DNA of 64,000 nt. It comes from Guyparkeria halophila (GTDB lineage: Bacteria; Pseudomonadota; Gammaproteobacteria; Halothiobacillales; Halothiobacillaceae). A model generated the notes under the pieces. That model was not told where the DNA came from. It searched no databases and saw only the letters and a list, made by a program, of their open reading frames with translations. Numbering within the stretch: the stretch's first letter is position 1; each line of letters begins with the position of its first letter. The translations under genes and the position numbers were made by a program. The stretch covers positions 441,501-505,500 of the forward strand of contig NZ_CP140153.1 of assembly GCF_034479635.1 (NCBI RefSeq), read 5' to 3'. This document shows, piece by piece, positions 49,295 through 64,000 of the stretch.

Positions 49295-49869
49295 TCCCGG
49301 CGCGCGTGTCACGTCCCGGTTGGTTGCTCCTGATGCTCGTGGTCGGGCTCGGCGGCTCGACCGGGCTGCACGCGGATGCCCGGGTGATCGACGTGCACGC
49401 CGAGGTGCGCGAGGAGTCGGTGTTCCTCGATGCCAACCTCGAACTGTCCTTGGGCCACGAGGTAATCGAGGCGCTGCGCAACTCGATTGCCGTGAACCTG
49501 ATCGTCGAGGCAGAGATCGCCGAGCCGCGCGAATGGCTCTGGGATCGGCGCCTGCTGACCGATCGGCGCCGACTGCGTCTGGAGTATCACGCGCTGTCCC
49601 GTACCTGGATGGTTACCGATTTCCATGCCCGCGAGACGCACACCTTCTCCGAGCTGGCCGGCGCGGTCGAGTCGCTCTCGCGCGTGCGGGCGTGGCGGCT
49701 GGGACCATGGGCGGCGCTGGCCGACAAGCCGCGTCTGCTGGGCAAGCTGCGCGTGACGCTGGACGTGAACAAGCTGCCACTGCCACTGCGTGTCCCGGCC
49801 CTGTTCGAGGACGCCTGGGACCTGGACAGCGACTGGTTCCTGTGGGGGCTGTCTGAGGTGAGGCGATGA
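49291..49869 (+). CDS. DUF4390 exported protein
   Basis: 192 aa. A signal peptide of about 28 residues precedes a beta-rich domain with LSLGHEVIEALRNSIAVNLIVEAEI, the DUF4390 pattern. Genes of this family lie between rsmB and ntrY in many Gamma- and Betaproteobacteria and overlap the kinase gene, as here by 4 bases. A link to the kinase is inferred only from this context. Confidence 0.88.
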   Translation: MIPARVSRPGWLLLMLVVGLGGSTGLHADARVIDVHAEVREESVFLDANLELSLGHEVIEALRNSIAVNLIVEAEIAEPREWLWDRRLLTDRRRLRLEYHALSRTWMVTDFHARETHTFSELAGAVESLSRVRAWRLGPWAALADKPRLLGKLRVTLDVNKLPLPLRVPALFEDAWDLDSDWFLWGLSEVRR

Positions 49870-52247
49870 CGCGTCTGGGCCGCCGCATGCAACGCTGGGT
49901 GAGGCGCGCCATCCCGCCGATCAGCGCGATGGTCATCGTGCTGTTGCTGGTGCTGCTGTATCTCGTTTCCGACTCGCTGCGTGCCGTCGAGCAGCCCGAG
50001 GGGCTGTTCCTGACCCTCCTGGGCGTCAGCGCGGTGGGGCTGCTGTTCCTCGCCATCGTGGTGCTCTGGCATATCGTCCGGCTGATCCGCGATTATCGCC
50101 GTGGCACGCCCGGCTCCCGCTTGACTGCGCGCCTGGTCGTGACCTTCGTCGCGTTGTCGGTGGTGCCGGTGGCGATCGTCTTCTACTTCTCGCTCACCTT
50201 CGTGCAGCGCGGCATCGATTCCTGGTTCGACGTGCAGGTCGAGCAGGCGATGACCGATGCCCTCTCCCTGTCGCAGATGTCCTTCGATGGCCGCATGCGC
50301 CAGGCACTGGAGCAGACTCGCCGTGCCGCCAGCGAGTTGCAGGACGGCGGCTCGGAGCTGATCGCGCTGGAGCTCTCGCAGATGCGGCGCACGACCGGGG
50401 CCGAGGAAATGACCATCCTCGGTCAGCGCAACCTGATCGTCGCCTCCTCCTCCGAGGATGCCACCAGTATCGTGCCGGCGCGTGCCGACGAGACCGCACT
50501 GGCACATGCCCGCTCCGGGCGGGATTTCATCGGGCTGGATCCCGGTGGCGACGGCAACCTGCAGATCCGCGTGGTGGTGCCGATGGAGGCCGGGCTCACC
50601 AGCGAGGGCGGCAAGCGCGTCCTGCAGGCGCTGTTCGACGTGCCCGATGAGGCCAACGAGCTTTCCAAGAGCGTTCAGGATGCCTTCAACAACTACCGCG
50701 AGCTGGTCTACCTGCACAGCTCGCTCAAGCAGACCTTCACCCTGGCCCTGACCCTGGCGCTGTTGTTGTCCCTGCTGACGGCGGTCTGGCTGGCCTTCCT
50801 GGCCGCGCGCAAACTTCTCAGTCCGATCCGCGAACTGGCCGCCGGCACCCACGCGGTGGCCGAGGGCGACTACAGCCTGCGCCTGCCGGTCGACCGGCGT
50901 GACGACCTGGGTCAGCTGGTCCAGTCGTTCAATACCATGACGGCCCGGGTACGGCGCGCCCACGAGGTGATGCGTGAGCTCCAGGAGCTGGCCGACAAGG
51001 AGCGCGACTACCTGGACACCGTGATCCAGCACCTGTCCTCGGGCGTGCTGACACTGTCCTTCGACGGGCGCATCATCAGCGGCAACTCGGCGGCGCAGCA
51101 GATCCTGGGGGTGGCGTCGGACGAGCTGTTCGAGGGCTCGCTGCAGGCGGTCTGTCGCGAGCACGCCAGCCTGTTGCCACTGTGCGAGGCGTTCCTCGAT
51201 AGGCTGGGCGCGGCCGGGCCGCCGCCGGGCGAGACGGTCGAGGCCCAGGTGCGCATCATGAACGGCAGTGGCCGCAAGGTGCTGCTCGCCAGGCTCGCGG
51301 CCTTGCCCCCGGACGGCGATGTGGACGCCGGCGGCTACGTGATGGTGCTCGAGGACGTCACCGCGCTGATCCAGGCGCAGCGGGATGCGGCCTGGTCGGA
51401 AGTGGCGCGTCGCCTGGCGCACGAGATCAAGAACCCGCTCACCCCCATCGGCCTGTCGGCCGAGCGGCTGCGCCGGCGTATCCTGCCGCAGCTCGACGAA
51501 GGGCATGCCCCGATCCTTGACCGGGCCACCGCCACGATCATCGCTCAGGTCGACGCCATGAAGCACATGGTCAACGAGTTCGCCGATTACGCGCGCAGCC
51601 CGCAGGTGAGCTTCGAGCGGCTCGACTTGCAGGCCCTGGCCGGCCAGACCGTCGAGCTCTACCGCGGCAACACGGCCGTCAAGGTCCGTTACCTGCCGGA
51701 GGTCGACGAGCCGGTCTGGGTCGAGGGCGATGGCAACCGGCTGCGCCAATTGCTGCACAACCTGATTCGCAACGCCAGCCAGGCGCTGAATGAACGCGGC
51801 GCGGTGGCGGGCGAGCCGATCGTGTTGCTCGACCTGCGGGTGATCGGTGAACAGGGGCATTGCCTGGCCGAGCTGACGGTGGCCGACAACGGCCCCGGTT
51901 TCCCGGCAGAGATGCTCGATCGCCTGTTCGAGCCCTACGCTACCACCCGGCCCAAGGGCTCGGGCCTGGGGCTGGCGATCGTCAAGAAGATCGTCGAGGA
52001 GCATGCCGGGGCCGTGCATGCCTGGAACGCGTTCGAGCAGCCGGAGAACGACGACACCGAGGCGGGCCGGCGGCTTGCCAATCACGGTGCACGCGTTACG
52101 ATTCGCCTACCCTTGGAATCGGGGCGCTGCGAGGCGCGCGGCAATCGCCGCCGGGAAGACGCCCCCATCGAAAAGGGCCGCCACGAGGGCGACCACGTCG
52201 ATAAGGGTCGCCAAGGTGGCCCCCACGGAGAAACGGGAATTTCCTGA
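49866..52247 (+). CDS. NtrY-type membrane sensor histidine kinase
   Basis: 793 aa. Three N-terminal membrane helices, an extracytoplasmic region of about 185 residues and another helix (about 295-318) are followed by HAMP (about 320-372). PAS (about 385-500) precedes the HisKA domain with phosphoacceptor His in RRLAHEIKNPLTPI. The ATPase domain has N-box LIRNASQAL and DNGPGFP, and GSGLGLAIV. A highly charged tail of about 40 residues after the kinase core is unusual. It pairs with the next gene. Confidence 0.93.
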   Translation: MTRLGRRMQRWVRRAIPPISAMVIVLLLVLLYLVSDSLRAVEQPEGLFLTLLGVSAVGLLFLAIVVLWHIVRLIRDYRRGTPGSRLTARLVVTFVALSVVPVAIVFYFSLTFVQRGIDSWFDVQVEQAMTDALSLSQMSFDGRMRQALEQTRRAASELQDGGSELIALELSQMRRTTGAEEMTILGQRNLIVASSSEDATSIVPARADETALAHARSGRDFIGLDPGGDGNLQIRVVVPMEAGLTSEGGKRVLQALFDVPDEANELSKSVQDAFNNYRELVYLHSSLKQTFTLALTLALLLSLLTAVWLAFLAARKLLSPIRELAAGTHAVAEGDYSLRLPVDRRDDLGQLVQSFNTMTARVRRAHEVMRELQELADKERDYLDTVIQHLSSGVLTLSFDGRIISGNSAAQQILGVASDELFEGSLQAVCREHASLLPLCEAFLDRLGAAGPPPGETVEAQVRIMNGSGRKVLLARLAALPPDGDVDAGGYVMVLEDVTALIQAQRDAAWSEVARRLAHEIKNPLTPIGLSAERLRRRILPQLDEGHAPILDRATATIIAQVDAMKHMVNEFADYARSPQVSFERLDLQALAGQTVELYRGNTAVKVRYLPEVDEPVWVEGDGNRLRQLLHNLIRNASQALNERGAVAGEPIVLLDLRVIGEQGHCLAELTVADNGPGFPAEMLDRLFEPYATTRPKGSGLGLAIVKKIVEEHAGAVHAWNAFEQPENDDTEAGRRLANHGARVTIRLPLESGRCEARGNRRREDAPIEKGRHEGDHVDKGRQGGPHGETGIS

Positions 52248-52250
52248 CGA

Positions 52251-53651
52251 ATGAGTATCGGACACATCCTGGTCGTCGATGACGAGAGCGAGATCCGCAA
52301 TCTGCTGGTCGACGTGCTCGAGGACGAAGGGTTTACCGTCAGCAGCGCGGCCGATGCCGTCGAGGCACGCGGCTCGATCGCGGTCCGACGGCCCGACCTG
52401 ATCCTGCTGGATATCTGGATGCCGGGCACGGACGGCATCGCGCTGCTGCGCGAATGGCACGAACGCGACCAACTGGTCTGGCCGGTGGTCATGATGTCGG
52501 GCCACGGCACGGTCGAGACGGCCGTCGAGGCCACCCGTCTGGGCGCCTTCGACTTCATCGAGAAACCCATCTCGCTTGACAAGTTGCTGCTGCTGATCGA
52601 GCACGCGCTCGACAACCGGCGCCTGGCGCAGGAAAACGCGGCACTCAAGCGCGGTGAGATCGACCCGCTCGACCTGATCGGCGACTCCGAGTACATGCAG
52701 GAGTTGCGCGACCAGGCGAAGAAGATCGCCGACCACGACGCCTGGGTGCTGATTTCCGGCGAGCCGGGCACCGGCAAGCAGGCGCTGGCTCGATTCATCC
52801 ATCGGCATTCGGCCCGTCGTCACTTCCCCTTTGTCGACACCGGCGGCAGCGCGGTTTCCGGGCGCCAGAACGCTGCGGTCGAGCTGTTCGGTGCCGAGGA
52901 CGACGGCCGCATCCGTTACGGGCTGCTCGAACAGGCCAACGGCGGCACGCTGTTCATCGCCGAGGCGGCGGACATGGACGAACAGACCCAGATGCAGCTG
53001 ATCTCGGCGCTCGAGAGCCAGTCGTTCTTCCGCGTCGGGGGCAACGAGCCGGTGCGCGTGGACGTGCGCGTGATCGCCGCGACCCGCAAGGACCTCGAGG
53101 CCGAGGTGCGCGCCGGCAACTTCCGCGAAGATCTCTACTACCACCTTTCGGTGGTGCCGGTGCACATCGAGTCGCTGCGCGAGCACCCCGAGGACATTCC
53201 GGTGCTGCTGTCCCACTACCTGGAGACGGCCCACAAGGTGGAGGGATTGCCGCGACGCGAGCTGACCATCGGCGCGCGCAACCTGCTGCGCTACCACCAT
53301 TGGTCAGGCAATGTCCGCGAGCTCAAGAACCTGGTCCAGCGCCTGCTGATCCTGGGCAGTGGCGAGGTGATCGACGAGCAGGAGGTCCAGCGGGCACTGG
53401 GGCTGGCGCCCATGGACGAGGCCGGGGCGGACAAGAGCTCGGCCCTGGTATCGCTCAACCTCGATCTGCCCCTGCGCGAGGCGCGTGACGAGTTCGAGCG
53501 GCGCTATCTGCTCGCCCAGCTGAAGAACGTCGAAGGCTCGATGACCGAGCTGTCGCGGCGAACGGGCATGGAGCGCACCAATCTCTATCGCAAGCTCAAG
53601 TCGCTGGGCATCCAGACCGGCGGCGAACGCTCCACGGGGACCAACGCATGA
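52251..53651 (+). CDS. NtrX-type response regulator with inactive-looking AAA+ domain
   Basis: 466 aa. Receiver domain with phospho-Asp in LILLDIWMPG, AAA+ domain (about 140-380) and Fis-type HTH (MTELSRRTGMERTNLYRKL). The Walker A is GEPGTGKQ. The GAFTGA loop that contacts sigma-54 is deleted (ELFGAEDDGRIRYGLLEQ), as is usual in NtrX. Walker B reads FIAE where FLDE is normal. It therefore probably does not activate sigma-54 transcription and works as a DNA-binding regulator. trkA overlaps its stop. Confidence 0.92.
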   Translation: MSIGHILVVDDESEIRNLLVDVLEDEGFTVSSAADAVEARGSIAVRRPDLILLDIWMPGTDGIALLREWHERDQLVWPVVMMSGHGTVETAVEATRLGAFDFIEKPISLDKLLLLIEHALDNRRLAQENAALKRGEIDPLDLIGDSEYMQELRDQAKKIADHDAWVLISGEPGTGKQALARFIHRHSARRHFPFVDTGGSAVSGRQNAAVELFGAEDDGRIRYGLLEQANGGTLFIAEAADMDEQTQMQLISALESQSFFRVGGNEPVRVDVRVIAATRKDLEAEVRAGNFREDLYYHLSVVPVHIESLREHPEDIPVLLSHYLETAHKVEGLPRRELTIGARNLLRYHHWSGNVRELKNLVQRLLILGSGEVIDEQEVQRALGLAPMDEAGADKSSALVSLNLDLPLREARDEFERRYLLAQLKNVEGSMTELSRRTGMERTNLYRKLKSLGIQTGGERSTGTNA

Positions 53652-61538: not shown

Positions 61539-61568
61539 CAAAAAAAGGCCCGCCGAGTGGCGGGCCTT
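61539..61568 (-). terminator. Terminator of soxYZ
   Basis: AAGGCCCGCC (61545-61554) pairs perfectly with 61559-61568 over a 4-base loop. On the minus strand it is followed by a run of T (complement of the A-run at 61540-61546). It lies 25 bases past the soxZ stop. Confidence 0.95.
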
Positions 61569-61592: not shown

Positions 61593-61898
61593 TTAGGCAG
61601 CCTGGGTAGCCTCGTCGGACTCGCCGGTGTTGGAGGTCCAGGAGATCTTGACCTCGTCACCTTTCTTGCCCGGTACCTTGATGTTCAGGTAGGGGTTCTT
61701 GGAAACGGCTTCCGACAGGTTGCCGTCCATGACGTTCTCACCGTTGACGGAGACCATCAGCTTCTGGATGTAGTTCGCCGGGATCTTCTCGCCGGTGGAC
61801 TTGTCTTCGCGGTTGCCGGATTCCATCGGGTGACGGATCAGGGCCTTCACGTCCAGAACGTCGCCGGCCGGAGAGATGCGCATGCGGATAGTAGACAT
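61593..61898 (-). CDS. soxZ: Thiosulfate oxidation carrier subunit SoxZ
   Basis: 101 aa, Ig-like periplasmic protein. It forms the SoxYZ carrier on which thiosulfate sulfur is bound and oxidised. The sequence RMRISPAGDVLDVKALIRHPMESG and DGNLSEAVSKNPYLNIKV is typical. No signal peptide is present: SoxZ is exported in complex with SoxY. AGAGG is 9 bases before the start at 61898. It lies 57 bases after soxY. Confidence 0.97.
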   Translation of the reverse strand: MSTIRMRISPAGDVLDVKALIRHPMESGNREDKSTGEKIPANYIQKLMVSVNGENVMDGNLSEAVSKNPYLNIKVPGKKGDEVKISWTSNTGESDEATQAA

Positions 61899-61955: not shown

Positions 61956-62426
61956 TTAGCCGCCGCAGCCACCGATGGTTACCTTGACTTCCTTGGACGC
62001 CTTGTACAGCTTGCCGCCCGCGTGAACTACGCCGGTGACGTCGTCGGTCTCGCCCATGCGGATACGGGTGGAGACGAACGGGTTGGCGCCGGACAGGTCG
62101 AAGGAAGCGACCAGCGGGGTCGGGTTCTTCGATACGAAGATGGCGACCTTGTCGGAGTCGGCGATGGAAGACTCGACGGTGACCGGGACAACCGCGCCGT
62201 TCTCGGCGATGTCCGGGGCCTTGACGGAGACGTCGCCGGACTCGGCAGCGTCAGAAGAACCGAACAGCTCGTTCAGGCCGTTGTCCATGCTCTCGGAATC
62301 GAAAGCGGCAGACGGCCAGTCGGCCGCCAGAACCGCACGCGGGGACAGCAGGCCGGCACCAACAGCCAGACCAGCAGCACTGGCAGCGAGGCTGCCCTTC
62401 AGAAATACGCGACGCTTGGTTTGCAT
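61956..62426 (-). CDS. soxY: Thiosulfate oxidation carrier protein SoxY
   Basis: 156 aa. A Tat signal (RRVFLKG, then a hydrophobic core and AVLAA cleavage site) is followed by the SoxY domain. It ends in the swinging arm GGCGG, whose Cys carries the sulfane/sulfonate intermediates. GAGGAG is 8 bases before the start at 62426. Other sox genes (soxA, X, B, C, D) are not in the window. Confidence 0.98.
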   Translation of the reverse strand: MQTKRRVFLKGSLAASAAGLAVGAGLLSPRAVLAADWPSAAFDSESMDNGLNELFGSSDAAESGDVSVKAPDIAENGAVVPVTVESSIADSDKVAIFVSKNPTPLVASFDLSGANPFVSTRIRMGETDDVTGVVHAGGKLYKASKEVKVTIGGCGG

Positions 62427-62471
62427 ATCTTAACTCCTCGTTAATGTGTGGGTGTCCACGCCTTCAGTGAA

Positions 62472-62486
62472 GCATGGCCCGTGCCA
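62472..62486 (-). promoter_or_regulatory. Sigma-54 (-24/-12) promoter of soxYZ
   Basis: On the minus strand, TGGCACGGGCCATGC has the -24 TGGCAC and -12 TGC elements with the invariant GG-N10-GC spacing; one base of TTGC is changed (ATGC). Transcription would start near 62460, about 34 bases before soxY. The upstream neighbour is a sigma-54 activator gene. Confidence 0.75.
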
Positions 62487-62536
62487 GATTTGTAACTCAT
62501 TGTCGTAGCAGGGGAATGTGGGGTTTGGGGCGCCCG

Positions 62537-62581
62537 TTGCAAGTTGCAATCTGCAATATTGATGCGTCCGGCATTGCAATG
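62537..62581 (-). promoter_or_regulatory. Candidate upstream activator sites of soxYZ
   Basis: A cluster of TTGCAA/TGCAA words (62537-62556) and the perfect palindrome CATTGCAATG (62572-62581) lie about 65-110 bases upstream of the -12 element, the usual range for enhancer sites bound by sigma-54 activators. Confidence 0.55.
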
Positions 62582-62616: not shown

Positions 62617-63972
62617 TCACTTCTTGCCGTAGTTCTGCAGCTTGCGCCAGAGGGTCGACTTGTTGATGCCGAGGATGTTGGCGGTCTTCTCGCGGTTGCC
62701 CTCGGTGTGCTTGAGCGTCTTTTCGATGTAGCGACGCTCGAGCTCCTCGAGGGTCGGGAGATCGGCGTCGATGGCGCTCGTCTCGTTACCGGTTGCCACC
62801 GGCGCGGTGTCCTCACCCACCAGTTCCAGGTCGATCTCCTCGCTGTCGGACAGGGCCACGGCCCGCTCGATGGCATTCTTGAGTTCGCGCACGTTGCCGG
62901 GCCAGGGGTAGTCGAGGATCGCCCGCTCGGCACGTTCGGTCAGGCGTTGGGCCGGCCGGCGAAATCGGCCAGCGAACTCGTCGATGAAGTGCTGGGCGAG
63001 GGCCGGGATGTCCTCGCGTCGTTCGCGCAGTGGCGGCATCAGCAGGCGCACCACGTTCAAGCGGTGATAGAGGTCGTGTCGGAACGTGCCCTCGCGCACC
63101 ATCTCGGCGAGGTTGCGATTGCTCGCGACGATGAAACGCACGTCGATGGGAATGGTCTGCACCCCGCCGACGCGGGTGATTTCCTGTTCCTGCACCACTC
63201 GCAGCAGTTTGACCTGCATCGCGTCCGAGATGTTGCCGATCTCGTCGAGAAAGACCGTGCCGCCACTGGCGACCTCCAGCAGGCCGGGCTTCGCGGTGTT
63301 GGCGCCGGTGAAGGCGCCCTTCTCATGGCCGAACAGCTCGTTCTCCAGCAGCGTGTCGGTCAGCGCGCCGCAGTCGATCACGATGTACGGCGTGCCGGCA
63401 AAGTCGGAGCGTTCGTGGGTGGCGCGTGCGGCCAGTTCCTTGCCCGAACCGGATTCGCCCTCGATCATCACGTTGATGCGCACGTCGCGGATCTTGTCGA
63501 GGATGTGATACACCGCCTCGATCGCCTTCGACTGGCCCAGCATCGCCCGTTCGCCCGGCTCGGCCGCGGCGGGTGGCTGGGTCGGCCCCTCGTCGAGCAG
63601 CCGGCGCACCAGGTCGATCAGCTCCTCGGGGTCGTAGGGCTTCTTGACGAAATCGCTGGCGCCGAGCCGCAGCGCCTGGATGGCGTTGTCGATGGTGGAA
63701 TAGCCGGTGATCAGGATCACCGGCAGTTCCGGCCATTCGCCGCGCAGCCATTCCAGGAATTCCAGGCCGTTCATGCCCGGCATCTTGAGATCCGAGATGA
63801 CCAGGTCGACCGCGTTGTCGGTCAGCCATGTCTGGGCGGCCTCGACCGACTGAAAGCCGTGCACCGTCAACCCTTCAGTGTGCGCGTAGCGCGTGAACAG
63901 GTCCGAGGCGCGTTCGTCGTCGTCGACGAAGGCGATGACCGGTGGGTTGTCGTTTGGCCTGGCAGTCGTCAT
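62617..63972 (-). CDS. Sigma-54-dependent response regulator upstream of soxYZ
   Basis: 451 aa NtrC-type activator. Receiver domain with phospho-Asp in LVISDLKMPGMNG and Lys in FVKKPYDP. The AAA+ domain has GESGSGKE, KGAFTGAN (sigma-54 contact intact) and TVFLDEIG. The C-terminal Fis-type HTH is NREKTANILGINKSTLWRKL. It lies directly upstream of soxYZ on the same strand. I recall a comparable sigma-54 regulator (TspR) controlling sox genes in Acidithiobacillus caldus; orthology is inferred. Its start overlaps the upstream gene. Confidence 0.92.
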   Translation of the reverse strand: MTTARPNDNPPVIAFVDDDERASDLFTRYAHTEGLTVHGFQSVEAAQTWLTDNAVDLVISDLKMPGMNGLEFLEWLRGEWPELPVILITGYSTIDNAIQALRLGASDFVKKPYDPEELIDLVRRLLDEGPTQPPAAAEPGERAMLGQSKAIEAVYHILDKIRDVRINVMIEGESGSGKELAARATHERSDFAGTPYIVIDCGALTDTLLENELFGHEKGAFTGANTAKPGLLEVASGGTVFLDEIGNISDAMQVKLLRVVQEQEITRVGGVQTIPIDVRFIVASNRNLAEMVREGTFRHDLYHRLNVVRLLMPPLRERREDIPALAQHFIDEFAGRFRRPAQRLTERAERAILDYPWPGNVRELKNAIERAVALSDSEEIDLELVGEDTAPVATGNETSAIDADLPTLEELERRYIEKTLKHTEGNREKTANILGINKSTLWRKLQNYGKK

Positions 63973-64000
63973 GGCGTCGGTGTCGATTGTTTGGATGTTT
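63969..64000 (-). CDS. 3' end of a CDS, probably the cognate sensor kinase
   Basis: A frame enters from the right edge on the minus strand and ends at a TGA (63969-63971) that overlaps the regulator start as ATGA; the last residues read TSKQSTPTP. Too little is visible for a family call. A coupled gene just upstream of an NtrC-type regulator is most often its histidine kinase. Confidence 0.4.
   Translation of the reverse strand, partial: TSKQSTPTP

Follow-up and report, generated by a model that had tools for sequence, protein, structure and literature searches.

Predicted sigma-54-dependent control of soxYZ by an adjacent two-component system in Guyparkeria halophila and related sulfur oxidisers

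In a 64,000-nucleotide stretch of the Guyparkeria halophila genome (hereafter the window; G000:C1:441501-505500 of the complete 2.45-Mb genome), the sulfur carrier genes soxY and soxZ are preceded on the minus strand by genes for a histidine kinase and an NtrC-type response regulator, and the sequence comparisons described below indicate that this adjacent two-component system very probably controls soxYZ through sigma-54. Such control had been proposed earlier from the letters of the window (the original prediction) and is now supported by a conserved promoter and conserved binding sites, a single rpoN gene and the lack of a classical sigma-70-like promoter in the spacer. The gene order is histidine kinase, regulator, a 190-nt spacer, soxY, soxZ and a terminator. 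The principal features, all on the minus strand, are as follows.

62471 to 62486, minus strand: -24/-12 sigma-54 promoter element TGGCACGGGCCATGCT, the best score in the window, conserved in Halothiobacillaceae and beyond
62544 to 62556, minus strand: enhancer inverted repeat 1, TTGCAGATTGCAA, found by the TTGCA-N3-TGCAA search and conserved in orthologous spacers
62537 to 62549, minus strand: second enhancer inverted repeat, TTGCAACTTGCAA, shifted by 7 bp relative to repeat 1 and overlapping it by 6 bp
62572 to 62581, minus strand: CATTGCAATG, the left half of an upstream operator, 23 bp 5' of the first full repeat
62617 to 63972, minus strand: open reading frame (ORF) of the NtrC-type response regulator (Pfam REC, Sigma54_activat and HTH_8; GAFTGA) with recognition helix GINKSTLWRKLQ
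63969 to 64000, minus strand, continuing beyond the window (L009:4469-6523): 3' end of the gene for the partner sensor histidine kinase (684 aa, from the ORF map)

The promoter had been placed 45-60 bases before soxY, and it was found there, on the minus strand at 62471-62486, its first base lying 60 nt 5' of the soxY ATG (62426). From its position transcription is predicted to start near 62460. Strict sigma-54 matches of this kind are expected 0.10 times per shuffled window by chance, and a scan of the regulator-soxY spacer for classical sigma-70 sites found no sigma-70-like promoter. The genome encodes one copy of rpoN (PF04552, E 1.1e-68) and eight full sigma-54 activators.

The window contains only two exact copies of TTGCA-N3-TGCAA (62537-62556; shuffle mean 0.01, no shuffle with two). 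They stand upstream of the promoter, their centres 57 and 64 bp from the -24 element, and both sites match exactly the enhancer consensus of the Vibrio regulator LuxO (TTGCA-N3-TGCAA, PMC3352281; TTGCAWWWTGCAA in PMC10162802). The TTGCAA words and the palindrome noted in the original prediction are present, although it had missed that the words form overlapping 13-bp inverted repeats and that the palindrome stands in register 23 bp upstream of the first repeat. Its distance of 65-110 bases further upstream holds when measured from the promoter's -12 end and fails from the -24 end, where the figure is about 51-95.

The gene just upstream was rightly described as encoding a GAFTGA-positive activator: the REC, Sigma54_activat and Fis-type helix-turn-helix (HTH) domains all score above their Pfam cut-offs, which places the protein among NtrC-type (group I) regulators, and it passes no equivalog cut-off among the best 25 NCBIfam models. 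The phospho-acceptor Asp61 (D61), Lys111 (K111) and the HTH helix GINKSTLWRKL are invariant in nine aligned orthologs. The kinase gene, the end of which overlaps the regulator's start codon (a detail unnoticed in the original prediction), encodes HAMP, HisKA and HATPase_c domains (Pfam) and a periplasmic dCache-type sensor. The sensor region of an ortholog, as modelled by AlphaFold (mean pLDDT, the model's own confidence score, 89.7), aligns with double-Cache sensors at a best Z of 20.8 and a root-mean-square deviation of 3.3 over 252 residues. A single scan of genome contigs gave 80 ortholog loci of the regulator, including Thioalkalivibrio, Chromatiales, Ectothiorhodospiraceae and animal symbionts, and at 78 of them the regulator is preceded by a kinase match.

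Conservation of the spacer in relatives, which the original prediction had offered as a check, extends to both the promoter and the TTGCA sites. Among 27 Halothiobacillaceae genomes soxY was detected in 24, all of which carry a TGGCA-type element 5' of soxY and nearly all TTGCA-type sites; the four genera of the family all keep the promoter and the sites before soxY. The regulator is directly upstream of soxY in 21 of these genomes, and in two further Halothiobacillus genomes it is 1.4-1.6 kb away with the sites still beside soxY. Pooling the loci from the contig scan and from genome searches gave 52 distinct regulator-soxY spacers, 21 from Halothiobacillaceae and 31 from other families. An exact TTGCA-N3-TGCAA is present in 27 of the 52 (0.1 expected by shuffling), a site with at most one mismatch in 39 (1.4 expected), a sigma-54 score of at least 13 in 46 (3.0 expected) and a strong score of at least 14 in 41 (0.5 expected). 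Outside Halothiobacillaceae 18 of the 31 spacers have a site with at most one mismatch, and most of the others contain a repeat resembling GTGCA-N3-TGCAC; the core TGCA-N3-TGCA is found in 46 of the 52. A motif-free count over the same spacers returned the ribosome binding site, TGGCAC and TTGCAA-type words as the top enriched 6-mers. The half-site position is less widely shared, with TGCA at the -23 offset in 10 of the 39 spacers having a site and two repeats (at most one mismatch) 23 bp apart in 4 of 35 thinned spacers.

An annotation-free search for the repeat and promoter pattern matched 15 of 369 gammaproteobacterial genomes, as against 1 with the reversed pattern, and five of the matches outside Halothiobacillaceae fall between the regulator and soxY. 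The matches at L074, L075, L077, L078 and L089 lead to unrelated genes and may reflect chance or other regulators. Three ortholog spacers (L195, L118 and L200) are short and have GTGCA-type repeats and no clear sigma-54 element; control of soxYZ at these loci may differ from that in the window.

The distances between repeat centre and -24 element look helically phased. In 22 thinned spacers they cluster near 62, 72, 83, 93 and 103 bp, with a best period of 10.2-10.8 bp (p 0.0006-0.013, according to the site chosen where a spacer has several); this result is supportive only, because the rule with the lowest p was picked after overlapping pairs had been seen.

A pattern search of the whole genome found three exact TTGCA-N3-TGCAA repeats (none with the reversed control), two of them at soxY, and all three lie 50-75 bp before a strong sigma-54 element. 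The third (C1:68093-68105) is 75 bp 5' of the element TGGCATGGAACCTGCT, or about 82 bp by the centre-based measure, which fits the phased distance series. TGGCATGGAACCTGCT precedes a gene for a soluble cytochrome c (G000:C1:68264-68602; L048:1672-2010, plus strand; Pfam Cytochrom_C). Two further genomes of the genus carry this gene with identical spacing, and another one shares the site and promoter; on these grounds the cytochrome c gene is predicted to be a second target of the regulator. No match to the site, even with one mismatch allowed, occurs in the soxB and soxC regions, nor does a sigma-54 element stand before these genes, so that the scan of other sox loci suggested in the original prediction was negative for soxB and soxC and yielded both elements at the cytochrome c gene. 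The regulon that the data support consists of soxYZ and one cytochrome c gene and falls short of the entire Sox pathway.

Several TTGCA-N3-TGCAA-type sites and a sigma-54 element were also found on the minus strand of L087 and L088 (promoter near 1515), two genomes of one genus in which the regulator ortholog is present but away from soxY. This promoter, downstream of groEL in L087, precedes a conserved stretch that contains no ORF, has no Rfam match and closes with a hairpin and a T run; this stretch could possibly be a sigma-54-dependent small RNA. The idea that these are Vibrio Qrr promoters was rejected, given the lack of an Rfam match and the presence of this regulator's ortholog in both genomes.

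From these observations the following mechanism can be proposed. The periplasmic double-Cache sensor of the membrane histidine kinase would detect a small extracytoplasmic molecule, probably thiosulfate or another reduced sulfur compound, and the kinase would then phosphorylate the NtrC-type regulator at Asp61. The regulator would bind the TTGCA-N3-TGCAA repeats, assemble into an oligomer with the aid of the half-site 23 bp further upstream, and remodel sigma-54 RNA polymerase at TGGCACGGGCCATGCT, giving transcription of soxYZ from near 62460, the likely direction of control being activation. The same regulator may also drive the soluble cytochrome c gene (G000:C1:68264-68602), whose product is a plausible electron acceptor for Sox.

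Several points weigh against this interpretation. The -12 motif of TGGCACGGGCCATGCT is ATGC where the consensus has TTGC, and some regulator-soxY spacers have no recognisable sigma-54 element. The shuffle expectations overstate independence, because the loci are related by descent and Halothiobacillaceae make up 21 of the 52 spacers. Sites with one mismatch number 14 genome-wide versus 12 in the reversed-pattern control, none of them with a strong sigma-54 element; a wider regulon reached through such sites is therefore unsupported. Finally, the likeness to the LuxO recognition helix described below comes from mapping published residues onto the ortholog alignment, with no LuxO sequence aligned. 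A single -24/-12 pattern with one mismatch is uninformative genome-wide, and sigma-54-like matches are not rare across the genome, as would be expected if promoter and TTGCAA words were chance resemblances without regulatory role. We give this next to no credence: joint conservation across families, set against chance expectations of 0.01-0.5, makes it very unlikely on comparative data. It is conceivable that the promoter is real and that the TTGCA sites serve a different one of the eight activators, enhancers working at a distance, while the adjacent regulator controls something else; yet among the seven activator C-termini read (of eight) the STLWRKLQ helix occurs only in the adjacent regulator, the helix is invariant in the nine orthologs, and site, regulator and soxY stay together across many families, all of which makes this arrangement quite improbable.

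A further alternative has the regulator repress or fine-tune soxYZ, with the main transcription arising from an unseen sigma-70 promoter. The restriction of the promoter scan to classical sigma-70 sites leaves some room for this, and a Guyparkeria pangenome study has suggested that the split sox genes are always expressed, with no complex regulation needed (PMC9032823). Against it, GAFTGA and a strong sigma-54 element point to activation, and activation by looping would be expected to leave enhancer and promoter helically phased, as observed, so that we assign it a small chance. The remaining candidate is an ortholog of TspS-TspR, a system that activates sox-II in Acidithiobacillus caldus via the upstream activating sequence (UAS) TGTCCCAAATGGGACA and is modelled as thiosulfate-sensing (PMC6335251), with binding sites that have drifted. 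The architecture is the same (PMC6335251), but TspR, represented here by one sequence taken from beside the exact UAS as published, shares 38% identity with the window regulator, a level similar to that of the genome's own unrelated activators; it falls outside the regulator's clade (100/100 support), its helix is GISRKQLRTKMKNF, and the enhancers are unrelated in sequence. Orthology is accordingly unlikely. Sigma-54-dependent control of soxYZ by the adjacent kinase and regulator accounts best for these comparisons.

The remaining features of the locus concern the target genes. Both carrier genes score above their NCBIfam family cut-offs, which agrees with the earlier identification of soxY.

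61956 to 62426, minus strand: soxY, thiosulfate oxidation carrier protein (TIGR04488, 168.5 bits, cut-off 125)
61593 to 61898, minus strand: soxZ, carrier complex partner (TIGR04490, 117.9 bits, cut-off 76)
62434 to 62439, minus strand: soxY ribosome binding site GAGGAG, the top enriched 6-mer among the 52 spacers
61545 to 61568, minus strand: intrinsic terminator 3' of soxZ (GC-rich 10-bp stem and T run)

Given the strong terminator after soxZ, soxYZ looks like a two-gene unit. The DNA of the locus is 91-92% identical to that of Guyparkeria sp. SCN-R1 and of a Halothiobacillus-labelled metagenome-assembled genome. Elsewhere in the window a second sigma-54-type response regulator is encoded at 52251-53651 (plus strand), immediately preceded by a sensor kinase gene (49866-52247); this pair is NtrY/NtrX-like in layout, and its activator domain scores well below those of the other full activators.

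Taken more broadly, the findings would describe a widespread gammaproteobacterial system of dCache kinase and NtrC-type regulator, using the LuxO operator code, independent of TspSR and controlling soxYZ together with a cytochrome c as electron acceptor (and perhaps, in one lineage, a small RNA), a view that we favour with moderate confidence. No prior description of this soxYZ switch was found in the literature searched, and the original account of TspSR (Li et al. 2017, cited in PMC6335251) may cover related loci. The carrier SoxYZ, the substrate platform for the other Sox enzymes, appears to have its own conserved switch, which argues against the constitutive sox expression proposed for Guyparkeria (PMC9032823). 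With enhancer, promoter, regulator and sensor defined, and a co-regulated cytochrome c predicted, control of soxYZ becomes directly testable.

The Sox pathway has few known regulators (PMC10318464), and TspS-TspR offers the closest parallel in layout, with kinase, NtrC-type regulator, UAS and sigma-54 promoter directly upstream of sox genes. Two genomes of a single family contain the exact UAS TGTCCCAAATGGGACA, in clusters (L214 and L215) ordered as activator gene, TGTCCCAAATGGGACA, a sigma-54 element about 127 bp further on, then soxX and soxY, which can serve as references for TspSR; a composite search for UAS and promoter at 30-60 bp gave no matches because of this longer actual spacing. 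The first sox gene is soxX there and soxY here, the site is TGTCCCAAATGGGACA rather than TTGCA-N3-TGCAA, and a pattern search for the TspR UAS found no TGTCCCANNTGGGACA in this genome. As far as clade, recognition helix and UAS tell, the two systems share layout but neither clade nor DNA code, which bears out the earlier impression that the TTGCAA sites differ from those of TspS-TspR. If the present system is independent of TspSR, sox genes have come under sigma-54 control on at least two occasions, through DNA codes that are unrelated. SoxR/SoxS of Alphaproteobacteria likewise controls sox genes (PMC10318464), but is an ArsR-type regulator and no sigma-54 activator (PMC10318464). The regulatory pair encoded beside thiocyanate dehydrogenase in Thioalkalivibrio and Guyparkeria also joins a kinase and a sigma-54 activator next to an operon for sulfur-compound oxidation, differing in its target, its GAF-domain kinase and its separate locus (PMC5744179, PMC6504805).

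The resemblance to LuxO, which activates the Qrr small RNAs in Vibrio quorum sensing, goes beyond the enhancer consensus to the NtrC-type REC-AAA+-HTH architecture. Residues reported as critical in LuxO include G409, S423, I425, Y426, R427, K428 and L429 (PMC11407668); G409, S423, R427, K428 and L429 are kept at equal spacing in the window regulator, whereas I425 and Y426 are Leu and Trp. By family score the regulator is not LuxO (321.9 against an NCBIfam LuxO cut-off of 800 bits), and it has a neighbouring dCache kinase in place of the quorum phosphorelay and soxYZ as its predicted target. The shared LuxO operator offers a chance to study one DNA code in two unrelated circuits.
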